64,000 nucleotides of DNA from Spizellomyces punctatus DAOM BR117 (lineage: Eukaryota; Chytridiomycota; Chytridiomycetes; Spizellomycetales; Spizellomycetaceae), in contig NW_015971543.1 of NCBI RefSeq assembly GCF_000182565.1, positions 779,397 through 843,396 on the forward strand, written 5' to 3'. Shown here piece after piece: positions 25,495-29,991 of the stretch. Position 1 is the stretch's first letter, and each line of letters starts with the position of its first letter. The notes below the pieces were generated by a model. The model was not told the origin of the DNA. It did no database searches and saw only the letters and a program-made list of their open reading frames with translations. A program made the position numbers and the translations under genes.

Positions 25495-27400
25495 CTAACG
25501 CCCATATCCTTCAATATGCAGCAGTACTCGCACGCCTCGTCGGATCCTTCCGGCACGTCCCCACTCTGGATCCATCTCTACATTGCCATCGACGTCCGAA
25601 CCCCCATCCGAGCTCGTCTCAAACCCATCACCCACAACCCGGCCCAGCCTTCCTACCTCATTCCGTATATCGTCCATCAAACCGACAGGCCCACACCCGT
25701 ATACAGAGACAATTTCACCGGGTCGAGTGTCCAGTTGTGAAAATATGCTTGCAACAGAGAGGCGGCGTGTACCCGTTTTCGGGTTGGTAATGACAAGACG
25801 CGGGACGAGAAGGGAAGTAGCACGAGGATGAGCCAAAAGATCTTGGTATAAGGAAAGTTGTGATGCATTGGGAGCTCGACAGGTCCACCAAAAGTGGATC
25901 TTTTGTATTCGTGGTGGAGGATTTTCGAGTATGGAACGCGCAATGGCAAGACCTCCAGGAATGCCGCTTCCACCGACAACAATAAGAACGTGATCAGAGC
26001 GTAGAAATCGTGGTGGGAGGTTACCATGTGGTCCGTCAATGTAAACTTGAATGTTTGGAGTCCCGCTCTCGGGATCAGTGTTTTCTTGCCATGTCCGCAC
26101 AAGCGATTGCGTCCACGAAGCATCGTGCGCCTGCGGTTTGATGATCAAACTCAGTCCAGGTGCAACAGGAGTGGACCTCGCCAACAAATATTCCATCTCA
26201 GGAGGTCCGCCCCTTCGACGTGGAGGAGAGCTGTTTGCGACAGTAAACGGATGCCATTCCACGTTTGAGACGGCTGGTACGCAGATGGAGACCCACTGTC
26301 CGGGGGCAGCAGGAATGTGACAATCTGCGATATCCAATCGCACATATCCGCAATCCTCCATCGTCAATGATGTGACATTATACGCTCGACGTCGATTGAA
26401 CACTCGTACGCATGAATCGATGATATACAATGTCAAAGTCGGCAAAGCATAGTAGAGCATGGGCGAAGCATGCACGAATGACAAAAGGATGGCCCCCAAC
26501 ACCGCGAAATGATTGAACCAGAACCAATTGAACCGTGTTCGGCGGATAGACTCGAACGAATTCAAAGAGACCCAGAGAAAGAGGAGTAGAGCCACGAGTC
26601 CCACCGGCCCCAACCAGCCTCTATACGAAGCGATCCTCTCATGTGACGCTCCAATCAGCAGCGTTGTTTTCCAAAACTGGGCCCATCCGCTTCGAGCGAG
26701 GCAGTAGGCTGCGAATGCACCAACATGCGCCCCAGCCAGTAGCACCGTCAGTGCTCCAGACCATCTATGAAAGGAGAGAGAATGGTCGTATCCGATTCCA
26801 AACAACGTGGATAGCAATCCATTGCGGGATGTCGGCAATAGGGTCAAGGACAGTTGAATGCCGGCATTGAAAGCAATGGCTTTGTAGGTAGCTCGCCACA
26901 TTCGCTGGGTCGGAGAACTTGAAGAAGAGCGGGAATGGTATTGCGTATACCAATAACAAAATTGAAAGAGCTGATGTCCCAGTACCAACAGCCACACGAT
27001 AATCTCTGCATAGGACCACTTTGTTCTGCGAGAGAGGGATATGTAACGATGTTTCCAAGAGTGCCCATGACCCCATGAGGTTCGTTGCGCCAGAGCAAAT
27101 ACGACAGCAACAACCGCAAGCCAACCATAGAATGCGACGAGACTGGACAACCAACGAGTTGTAAACAGTTAGAGAATTGTGTGGGCTGGCACAAATTCAT
27201 TATCTCTCTTACCTGTTACGCATCTCCGTATTCAAGTGCTCCTTCTCTGGACACACTTGTGACCAACACTTGCCCCCTTTAAACATAACATAGGCGGATA
27301 CGAGTAAACTTCCAGGAAGGACCGTCGCCGCTGTGAATATGGCAATGTGCATTGTCTTGAAGCGGAAAGTATCTTTTCTGGAATCTGACGGAGAAGCCAT
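25495..27400 (-). CDS. Ferric reductase-type transmembrane oxidoreductase
   Basis: Exons 27400-27213 and 27142-25495 give 611 aa. This family moves electrons from NADPH through FAD and two haems across the membrane to Fe3+ or another acceptor. The N terminus has a membrane helix and a short CWSQVC loop. The haem-bearing ferric-reductase domain contains HRWSGALTVLLAGAHVGAF and FNHFAVLGAILLSFVHAS (haem histidines). The FAD-binding motif is HPFTVAN, the NAD-binding loop GGSGIPGG, and the C-terminal YGCGPVGLM is typical of FRE/NOX flavodomains. Both cytosolic domains appear complete. The start at 27400 lies only about 75 bases from the Fanzor element end at 27476, so the element sits in its promoter or 5' UTR, which also holds a GAC triplet repeat. 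Confidence 0.9.
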
Positions 27401-27475
27401 GACGGCGTCGTTGTCCTCGTTGCCGTCGTCGTCGTCGTTGTGAAATTACGCATGGGCTTGTCGTTCTAGTTCTTA

Positions 27476-27506
27476 GTGCGGAGCCGATGGGTATTGGCCC
27501 TAGCAC
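27476..27506. repeat. Left terminal inverted repeat of the Fanzor element
   Basis: Its 22-base core at 27477-27498 (beginning TGCGGAGCCGATGGG) is perfectly inverted at 29611-29632. The following CCTAGCAC matches ACTAGTAC on the right at 6 of 8 positions. This is the 3' (right-end) side relative to the Fanzor gene. Confidence 0.93.
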
Positions 27507-27600
27507 CCGCACCAGGGATTGAACCGCGCGACAACCGGTTCGGAAAACCTAATCTAACCAATCTACGCTACGCTACCGCTGGAACACCCCTCCTGAACAC
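27476..27600 (-). ncRNA. Presumptive guide-RNA (omega/fRNA) scaffold region
   Basis: By analogy with TnpB and characterised Fanzors, the guide RNA scaffold should come from the end of the nuclease ORF through the element's 3' end and read into flanking DNA. On the minus strand this stretch contains a Pol III A-box-like TAGCGTAGATTGG (27561-27573, overlapping the ORF end). About 40 bases on it contains an exact B-box GGTTCAATCCC (27514-27524). A full tRNA cannot be folded: the T stem is only partly paired and no matching acceptor exists. So this is tRNA-like rather than a tRNA gene. The ends are inferred. Confidence 0.45.
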
Positions 27601-29469
27601 CTCTGGTCTGCCGTGTCCATCCAACATTGATTGCACGATCGTTACCATATTGCAGGTGCTCAGCGTATCTCGATTCCAGTAGCGCATCGTCCAGGCTTGC
27701 TGCAAACAGTTAGGGTTGGTACAACCCAGCAATCCGTGGACTTTTTCAATCTTGCCTTCGCGTCGCCGCCAAGGTCTTGAATGAGGTCGTGTTTTGAAGC
27801 CTTTTTCAACGCCAGAGGAACAGCAAGGGCAAACAGATGAGGTCTTGTACTCGTCGAGAAGGAAGCAGTTGATCCTGTTGCGCTTAAAGAGGGTGCGCCA
27901 GCCTTTCGTCCTTGATGAGGTCTGAAATCTTGCAGTTCGACCGGCGTCGCTCCAATCACCCATCACAACAGTAAAGTTTTCGCCATACTTGTTGCGCATG
28001 TTGCTTATGAGGTCCGATTCACTTCGCTGCCGATTGATGAAAGAGTGCCACTTCCACCGCGTGTGGGCAGGATGTGAGTAGAACTCCTTTCGACGATCCG
28101 AATCTGCATGATGGCGAACAAGAAGGTAGCGAGTAAAGTCCATGAGGTTCATCGTCTTGTGAGATGGTATTCGTGATTCTATGAGGTCAACTCCAGCTTC
28201 TTTCTTCATTGCTTCTCGTCTCTTTGCAAATCGCCGGCTGCCTGTCTCCATGGCTCGCTGGTTTGCGGTGTAGCGAAACGCTGTACCATTGCTGTCTTGG
28301 CAGTAGAGAATGTCACGCTTGTTTGGGTCGATAACAATGACATTCTCTGCTGCTCGACAAGCAGGTAAGTTTTTCTCCACATAAAGCGCTTTAACCTCTG
28401 CCTCCATCGTGTTTGCTGACTTTTTTCCTCCGCTGCGCTTTCCATACTTGTCTGCTTCTGGGTGCTTTAGGTATACAGACACCGAGGTTCCGTCCGTCGT
28501 GATCGAGCCTTCAAAACACATTCCATGACGAGATCTAAAAGCCTTGTTCTGCAGATTACAGACGCGCAACCATAAATCGACGTTTTCAACAGTTTCCGCT
28601 TCTCGTCGCGTGATGCAAAGAACGTGAGAGTAGAGGATGACGGTGTCGATCCGCACATGGCTTTGGATGAGAGAGCGGCGCAGAGGTATTGCGCTGAACT
28701 GTCGGAATCCATGCTGTTCATATAGGCTTGACAACTGACAATAAGCAGGGAAGAAGGCGAGAGGGTCTACAGCAACTGAATATGCGAGCAGCTGGTCGGA
28801 AAGGGGAATGAAGGACCACATCTCTTCTAGAAGCTCACTCTCTTCAGCGGTCAAGTCATCGAGTGACTCAGGCACGATATCAAAAAGGAAAATTGACTTC
28901 AAGTAGCGAAGACGAGCAAAGAAAGCGTTTCGCGCATCGCTTTTCAGTGGCAGTCGCTGCTTCTGTCCCTTCACATCAAGCCGCAGATTAATGTACCGGA
29001 GCAGCATCATCATGAAGTGTTCCTGGACATTGACCTTCAGATTCGTCATCATACTCGCTGTCAGATAATTGACTGATTGCTGCTCTTTTTGTAGATTTGG
29101 ATGAACGAAGCCGACGATGTTGCAGTACCGTTGGATGTATGGCAACAAGGATTCGCGTAACGCCTTCTTCGCACCGGTTTTTGGTTGCCATGATTCACCT
29201 TTGTTGAGAAGATAGAGGATGGCTTCAATCGTCTCTTGATTTACTGTGGGAAAAACTGGCGCTGATGATGAAAGGAGATAGAATTTCAGCGCGTGGGAAG
29301 CGTGGTCGGCGAGTTGATGGATGATGGCGATGTAATCTAAAAGCCGTTGGCAGTAGATGTCGTTTGGCAGGAAAGCTTTTGCAAAGGAAGTCTTGTTGCA
29401 GGTATGTAAGCAAGTAGGTTTGTCGAGTTTTTCGAGTCTTTCGAGCTTTTGCTTCTTCTTTGGTGGCAT
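27568..29469 (-). CDS. Fanzor RNA-guided DNA endonuclease (TnpB-like)
   Basis: An intronless 633-aa protein. Residues 1-15 (PPKKKQK) form a nuclear localisation-like basic cluster. The first 370 residues are helical, matching the wedge/REC part. The C-terminal half is a RuvC nuclease: the first catalytic Asp in VIVIDPNKRD (D381), the strand VVMGDWS at 501-507 where TnpB normally has its glutamate, an acidic LLDEYKTS (D539/E540), a zinc ribbon with Cys at 547, 549/550, 583 and 588, and the last Asp in NRD (D601) with alanine-like spacing. The absence of Glu at the usual site with an acidic pair before the zinc ribbon agrees with the rearranged RuvC reported for Fanzors. All key residues are present, so the enzyme is probably active. 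Such enzymes cut DNA next to a short motif, guided by an RNA made from the element's 3' end. Confidence 0.95.
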   Translation of the reverse strand: MPPKKKQKLERLEKLDKPTCLHTCNKTSFAKAFLPNDIYCQRLLDYIAIIHQLADHASHALKFYLLSSSAPVFPTVNQETIEAILYLLNKGESWQPKTGAKKALRESLLPYIQRYCNIVGFVHPNLQKEQQSVNYLTASMMTNLKVNVQEHFMMMLLRYINLRLDVKGQKQRLPLKSDARNAFFARLRYLKSIFLFDIVPESLDDLTAEESELLEEMWSFIPLSDQLLAYSVAVDPLAFFPAYCQLSSLYEQHGFRQFSAIPLRRSLIQSHVRIDTVILYSHVLCITRREAETVENVDLWLRVCNLQNKAFRSRHGMCFEGSITTDGTSVSVYLKHPEADKYGKRSGGKKSANTMEAEVKALYVEKNLPACRAAENVIVIDPNKRDILYCQDSNGTAFRYTANQRAMETGSRRFAKRREAMKKEAGVDLIESRIPSHKTMNLMDFTRYLLVRHHADSDRRKEFYSHPAHTRWKWHSFINRQRSESDLISNMRNKYGENFTVVMGDWSDAGRTARFQTSSRTKGWRTLFKRNRINCFLLDEYKTSSVCPCCSSGVEKGFKTRPHSRPWRRREGKIEKVHGLLGCTNPNCLQQAWTMRYWNRDTLSTCNMVTIVQSMLDGHGRPEVFRRGVPAVA

Positions 29470-29602
29470 GATGATATCTGTATCTGTGGAAAAGATGAAA
29501 GCCTGGGAAAATGGACGATGACTTATATAGGATTTTTTGGATCAAACCATAGTTCATGAGTCTAAATCGAGTAAAATTATGATTAAATTGGTTAGAATCT
29601 TT

Positions 29603-29633
29603 GTACTAGTGCCAATACCCATCGGCTCCGCAT
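29603..29633. repeat. Right terminal inverted repeat of the Fanzor element
   Basis: Inverted copy of the repeat at 27476-27506, at the 5' side of the gene. Just outside, on the gene strand, the flank reads GGACATA directly before the element, so a CATA tetramer abuts the insertion point. Confidence 0.93.
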
Positions 29634-29991
29634 TATGTCCGCATTGTCATCGATCTCCATCATTCCGGTGTCGGAATCACAATCCAGGAAGGCTTACAAA
29701 ATCATTTCAGCTTATCCGATTGGATGAATTCCCCGCGATGAGATTGCACGTGCATCGGTCTCGTGATATCACGCGGCCGTCAGTTCGGCTCTCTGGGTGA
29801 AGCCTCCAACACCATCGGGGATCTCCACCCATTGCATTTCATTGCTGTTCATCTCCAGCGTGCCTTTTTTGCTCGTCTTGATACGTCTTTTATGACCAGA
29901 ATAATCAAATGAATGTATTATGATAATATGGGGCCTAAATTTTACATCTGCAAACTATTATGACTCGCCAACGTCTGTTTTTCTAAACCCA
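29634..29991. other. Intergenic region beside the Fanzor element
   Basis: About 360 bases between the right end of the element and the stop of the GDPD gene. No open frame with support and no second copy of the inverted repeat is seen. Confidence 0.45.

Follow-up and report, generated by a model that had tools for sequence, protein, structure and literature searches.

A Fanzor1 element of the SPu-1 family in Spizellomyces punctatus, its predicted omegaRNA and its flanking letters

The SPu-1 family and its window copy

Statements on published systems follow the available text of each paper. The SPu-1 elements of Spizellomyces punctatus were described by Bao and Jurka in 2013 as units of ~2.1 kb with a 633-aa protein, 33-bp repeats and putative TA duplications, present in 17 full-length copies of which nine were intact, and the Fanzor1 motif was given as D-X(125-275)-[TS][TS]XX-C4 zinc finger-X(5-50)-RD (PMC3627910). 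Saito et al. 2023 counted 42 Spu-1 Fanzor loci, 19 of them full-length, and 134 ghosts, which have no protein and different terminal repeats, and reported that a transposase is absent between the Spu-1 repeats (PMC10432273). RNA-guided DNA cleavage was demonstrated for SpuFz1, whose cutting needs the TAM CATA and is abolished by any change to it, and the S. punctatus omegaRNA was described, at four loci that are sisters of the window copy, as a 75-nt scaffold with a 14-15-nt flank-derived guide (PMC10432273). The TAMs are CATA for SpuFz1 and TTAA for GtFz1 (PMC10432273 and the later text of PMC11423790), their order being swapped in one sentence of PMC11423790.

The window is the whole 64,000-nucleotide stretch of the S. 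punctatus DAOM BR117 genome that was analysed (contig NW_015971543.1, positions 779,397 to 843,396). It contains the following features.

27474..29635, minus strand: complete SPu-1 Fanzor1 element with the TA at each end (from the inverted repeats and the length)
27568..29469, minus strand: Fanzor1 protein, 633 aa, intron-free (from the frame, the SpuFz1 match at E=0 and the aligned residues)
29603..29635, unstranded: left-end (5') inverted repeat in element orientation (from repeat comparison)
27474..27506, unstranded: right-end (3') inverted repeat, doubling as the 3' part of the predicted omegaRNA (from repeat comparison)

By sequence comparison the window element is one copy of the already described SPu-1/Spu-1 family of several dozen copies. 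It is 2,162 bp long and has CA before its left repeat, shares species, protein length, element size, repeat length and terminal TA with SPu-1 and its protein SPu-1-1p, and showed no difference from SPu-1 as described in PMC3627910. Its novelty is accordingly low, the family having been described in 2013 and the protein characterised in 2023. A first-pass annotation made from the letters had placed a complete Fanzor element here, and this is confirmed by the intact frame, the inverted repeats and TA at both ends. The 31-bp repeats that it set at 27476-29633 are present with their TAs; only the extent changes, to 33 nt at 27474-29635 counting the TAs, with 30 of 33 letters matching. The intronless ORF was borne out, running from ATG to stop on the minus strand. 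That the element has no transposase of its own also stands: a single second frame of at least 100 aa lies inside it (110 aa, overlapping), and no transposase frame was seen among frames of this size. In this the window element differs from an autonomous Tc1/mariner element, which encodes a transposase between its repeats, and the proposed dependence on another element for movement agrees with Saito et al. 2023 (PMC10432273). The likeness to prokaryotic TnpB (IS200/IS605, IS607; PMC10711439), as generally understood, lies in a right-end RNA, a flank-derived guide and a target rebuilt on exit, whereas the window element encodes no TnpA partner and ends in inverted repeats with TA.

Across the 23,997,880 bases and 29 contigs of the host genome, a search with the 20-nt core of the repeat, allowing up to 3 mismatches, gave 74 matches against none for a reversed control, so the repeat is not a chance one; one of the 74 matches (L068) is visibly no element end. 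A protein search of the same genome gave at least 71 matching stretches, many of them fragments of broken copies, the number being a lower bound with 70 of the 82 candidates scored. Two copies of a second Fanzor family lie about 5 kb apart at C9:617000-625000 (L043). Identity to the window protein is 62% for one and 59% for the other, and both contain stops; they have a related omegaRNA stem 1 and a much shorter right-end hairpin.

The window copy is virtually certain to be a Fanzor1. Its protein matched SpuFz1 (8gkh) over residues 2-633 in a phmmer search of solved structures (E=0, 1217.6 bits) and Parasitella parasitica Fanzor 1 (9cf0) at E=2.5e-45; the identity rests on these structures because Pfam gave the Fanzor protein no match beyond a chance-level Ig_PIFI (E 0.19). 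The TnpB-related Fanzor identity proposed in the first pass is thereby upheld, as are the RuvC residue D381 and the final D601, the counterparts of D383 and D606 in SpuFz1. To these comes a third acid that it had left unnamed, E540 (SpuFz1 E541). This triad is common to all 13 intact copies, and N383 aligns with SpuFz1 N385. The zinc-ribbon cysteines named earlier (547, 549/550, 583, 588) are all present, and the published motif can be followed through D381, TSSVC up to C547, C547/549/550 with C583/C588, and R600-D601. Among 11 further SpuFz1 contact residues 10 are identical, the exception being the TAM contact R96, which is K97 in the window copy and K in four of the 13 copies. The suggestion that this might be the characterised protein or a close relative holds in its second half: the window protein is 83.9% identical to SpuFz1, has identical catalytic residues and an equally placed predicted omegaRNA and left CATA, and sits with its own guide at another locus of the same genome, while locus L060 encodes all 637 residues of the solved SpuFz1. 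Intactness of the copy is supported by its uninterrupted frame, and the window Fanzor is probably active, judging from its catalytic and zinc residues, the intact predicted omegaRNA fold and purifying selection.

Selection was estimated from 13 frames of at least 600 aa, from the loci read and the window, that match SpuFz1 almost end to end; L015 (625 aa) was excluded, its match ending at SpuFz1 residue 580. Across the 78 pairs the medians were dN 0.081, dS 0.52 and dN/dS 0.154 (range 0.114-0.228, Nei-Gojobori), and because so low a ratio occurs at so high a dS, the coding comparison indicates that the family is old and maintained by selection on the protein, with no recent burst. This settles the alternative left by Saito et al., 'recent duplication or strong selection' (PMC10432273), toward selection. 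Changes private to a single copy (162 nonsynonymous, 119 synonymous) reach a ratio of 0.39, so single copies have lately been under weaker constraint, which is what drift after insertion would give. The window copy has 14 nonsynonymous and 8 synonymous private changes (0.51), and the extremes are L055 (0.10) at the low end and L064 (0.93) and L013 (1.87) at the high end. These less constrained private changes count against the explanation of Fanzor function favoured below.

Predicted omegaRNA and guide

By analogy with the published RNA, the right end of the window copy should yield a 75-nt scaffold and a guide read from the 3' flank. The predicted parts are as follows.

27474..27548, minus strand: predicted 75-nt omegaRNA scaffold (from position, analogy with the published scaffold and co-variation)
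27521..27541, minus strand: predicted stem-loop 1, with 7-nt arms, of which 6 of 7 pairs form in the window copy
27476..27512, minus strand: predicted stem-loop 2, with base GTGCGG (27512-27507) pairing with CCGCAC (27481-27476)
27458..27473, minus strand: predicted guide AGAACTAGAACGACAA, read from the 3' flank

The predicted scaffold begins 19 nt past the stop codon and ends in TA, which fits RNA scaffolds of other systems that incorporate the target-site duplication (PMC10711439). Pairing was scored in 46 of 47 distinct right ends (22 Fanzor, 25 ghost, from 69 right ends in all; GL092 was dropped with its anchors missing), with stem arms placed by our own anchors. In stem 1, 313 of 322 cells were paired and two of the seven pairs showed double changes; for stem 2 the figures were 269 of 276 cells and three of six pairs. 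In controls shifted in register by one or two, pairing was 9-61% and 9-82%, and no control had more than one double change. In this alignment, then, both predicted stems co-vary in the manner of conserved stems. The CCGCAC arm of stem 2 sits inside the terminal repeat and the stem takes the forms GTGCGG/CCGCAC, GTGTAG/CTACAC and GTGTAT/ATACAC by subfamily, so repeat and inner arm have changed jointly between subfamilies.

Words around the stop codon and omegaRNA, which we take to resemble A-box and B-box motifs (GGTTCAATCC being the B-box-like one), raised a Pol III reading that was dropped. Over 27300-29800 Rfam returned nothing even with E allowed up to 5, neither ARAGORN nor Rfam at gathering score found a tRNA in the window, GGTTTATTCC replaces the B-box-like word in 14 of 30 ghost loci, and that word itself forms the 3' arm of the conserved stem 1.

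A ferric-reductase/NADPH-oxidase-like gene (Pfam PF01794, PF08022, PF08030) occupies window positions 25495-27400 downstream on the same strand, with the right end of the element about 73 bp upstream of its putative ATG (27400, minus strand), so the window guide derives from the upstream region of that gene.

Flanking letters and vacated sites

The left junction of the window copy carries one further feature.

29634..29637, minus strand: CATA formed by flank CA and terminal TA, equal to the published SpuFz1 TAM (PMC10432273)

Conservation of CA before the left repeat was first observed by Saito et al. (PMC10432273); the comparison of left with right flanks is added by the present analysis. Left ends were chosen by the repeat and inner letters, CA not being used, one right end (L033) was dropped as a duplicate with the same flank as L032, and a left end was obtained from 23 and a right end from 29 of 30 ghost loci. 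At Fanzor left ends the preceding letters are CA in 31 of 35, and at ghost left ends in 20 of 23 (51/58 combined), the remaining flanks being TA (four Fanzor, two ghost) or TC (one). At right ends the mirror image TG comes next in 5 of 39 Fanzor and 3 of 29 ghost cases (8/68), near the 7.7% background at TA sites of the window, and the left-right difference is significant (Fisher 5e-19). By position, A stands at -1 in 57/58 and C at -2 in 51/58, with T there in six. The four Fanzor exceptions are broken copies (L030, L057, L063, L065), and CA was found in 12 of 12 intact-copy against 18 of 22 broken-copy left ends, numbers too few to mean much; L061, its left-end fragment being inverted, was omitted from this comparison.

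The right end terminates in ACTA in all 39 Fanzor ends (24-mer, up to 4 mismatches); ghost right ends were found through an exact ACACTA, which makes their 29/29 uninformative. Because the Fanzor right end reads ACTA, an occupied site has no CATA ahead of its guide sequence. For most of the copies read, joining the two flanks would give an empty site with CATA followed by the guide sequence, unlike the occupied one, and from the sequences the flanks look as expected if each copy targets its own vacated site.

This arrangement suggests a mechanism in which Fanzor and omegaRNA would cut DNA bearing CATA followed by the guide sequence. Exit of the element would leave a left flank ending in CA, one TA and then the guide sequence, which is the target, while the occupied site would be spared, its right end supplying ACTA instead of CATA. 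Fanzor would thus cleave those copies of its own site that are vacated or empty, repair templated by an occupied copy would keep or restore the element, and movement would fall to a separate TA-targeting transposase. A homing-like retention role is plausible, and the whole chain from identity to self-site retention is our best explanation, with about an even chance of being right throughout.

No empty site was found. When flanks were joined and compared with the genome, 23 Fanzor pairs (40 of 46 candidates scored) and 22 ghost pairs (28 of 28 scored) matched the flanks themselves alone, and because no empty site was seen for these 45 insertions the TA duplication and the pre-existing CA are putative, which counts against the best explanation. 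In a local comparison of loci, L055 matched weakly (79% over 48 nt) at two places, its own flank and the overlapping L081, and this is read as a local repeat. The window CATA with 15 nt of guide had no exact match in the genome; the nearest were two sites with 2 mismatches each, one being its own occupied junction, and the search returned 9 pattern matches against 15 in a reversed control.

Beyond the CA, T at -4 (32/58, expected 15.4, p 3.9e-6) and A at +4 (46/68, expected 18.4, p 3.5e-12; both p values uncorrected over positions -10 to -1 and +1 to +14) mirror each other about the TA. The former is due to Fanzor copies (24/35, ghosts 8/23), while A at +4 occurs in both classes (Fanzor 25/39, ghosts 21/29). 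A at -3 is also frequent (32/58, expected 15.6) with its mirror missing (T at +3 in 22/68). The window copy has G at -4 and A at +4.

These preferences bear on how the CA arose, since a left-only CA can equally arise at integration, which counts against the best explanation. A transposase might insert one-way at CATA, the TAM merely matching, and RNA-guided cutting might still help, the CA being then no footprint of selection by Fanzor; we regard this as a real possibility falling somewhat short of even. In prokaryotic IS200/IS605 the TAM equals the insertion site, A at +4 reveals a target preference of integration itself, and CA is equally frequent beside the protein-less ghosts. The mirrored T at -4 and A at +4 are what a symmetric transposase would give, and the ACA at -3 to -1 is unmirrored, which speaks against one-way insertion, although this argument is weak, T at -4 being carried by the Fanzor copies and present in 8/23 ghosts. 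The retention explanation can be extended to read the left-only CA of SPu-1 and ghosts as a footprint of RNA-guided retention: integration itself would have no more than a weak preference, symmetric around TA, and the copies to persist would be those that landed with their CATA on the guide-competent side, because only then could the vacated site be cut and the element copied back, the ghosts being parasites that keep an omegaRNA and borrow the protein. We hold this extended form to be rather unlikely.

The CA might instead belong to the element's own left end (CATAGTG...) and move along with it, the TA then being no target-site duplication. Its conservation, about that of element letters, and the C-to-T pattern at -2, like that of a decaying inherited C, would suit such an origin. 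The right end, however, has no matching CA/TG (8/68), although the other letters of the inverted repeat do recur there. The TA at either end and the mirrored T and A fit a TA duplication, and we consider this origin of the CA improbable.

The additions made here concern what Fanzor does for its element, a point left open by Saito et al. (PMC10432273). Left-only CA together with the integration preference at +4 provides a concrete test between RNA-guided retention and a TAM that matches the integration site. Among titles and abstract openings in the literature, with subscription journals mostly uncovered, none was found to test the retention question in S. punctatus.

Ghosts, decay and rearranged loci

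Ghosts resemble the window element in an omegaRNA-like right end and in the CA preceding the left end and differ in having no protein and other repeats, yet two Fanzor-bearing copies, L046 (C10:2500-5400) and L044 (C9:735000-737500), bear ghost-type right ends. L046 also has a ghost-type left end preceded by CA. Alignment to ghosts gave 98.7% identity for its right-end piece (L069, 77 nt) and 92.8% for its left end (L073, 69 nt), and a Fanzor-bearing form therefore exists or existed for one ghost subtype or more. Such copies, not seen in the available text of PMC10432273, tie the ghosts to Fanzor-bearing elements, and by the sequences both a deletion derivative and recombination are possible.

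The ghost-type right-end pattern occurred at 179 sites against 3 in a reversed control, some Fanzor ends also being caught. This abundance, and the help in trans raised by Saito et al. (PMC10432273), would be in keeping with a Fanzor recruited otherwise, for cutting other elements or aiding unrelated transposons in trans. Against such recruitment, every guide read is the copy's own flank, the window guide has no exact second CATA target in the genome, and copies exist at every grade of decay, like parasitic elements; we judge it very unlikely.

Scored against the intact-copy consensus, C-to-T change at CpG reached 30-38% in five of seven non-intact Fanzor copies (L046, L022, L051, L033, L044) and was lower in L025 (13%), L026 (9%) and four intact copies (6-9%), with other C contexts mostly at 3-13%. 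In sequence this resembles what methylation and deamination of cytosines would leave in some of the copies.

A DDE_3 search of the genome for a partner transposase gave two places. The first is a long intact IS630/Tc1-type frame with HTH_23 (C3:533347-534495; L099:1330-2478, minus strand; E 1.4e-12), around which no SPu-type repeats were found within the 3.4 kb read, and which as a genome query returned itself and three poor fragments. DDE_1 gave zero matches in the host and likewise in the control genomes, which makes this negative uninformative. In the loci read no transposase was bracketed by the SPu-type repeats, and this too counts against the best explanation. The IS630-type frame starts about 180-230 bp from a ghost right end (L099:2716). 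The other DDE_3 place is a remnant (C5:992487) with a ghost-type site some 2.2 kb away; these may be either partners or chance neighbours.

At L061 (C17:397100-400200) an intact Fanzor copy has its right end 74 nt away from a left-end fragment that faces the opposite way. The copy's own 5' side yielded no left end, and the locus is either rearranged or nested. Right ends at C7:276426 and C7:283424 (L032, L033), 7 kb apart, have an identical 3' flank, so a stretch containing the element end was duplicated, and a run of N (gap or masked) adjoins one of the two.
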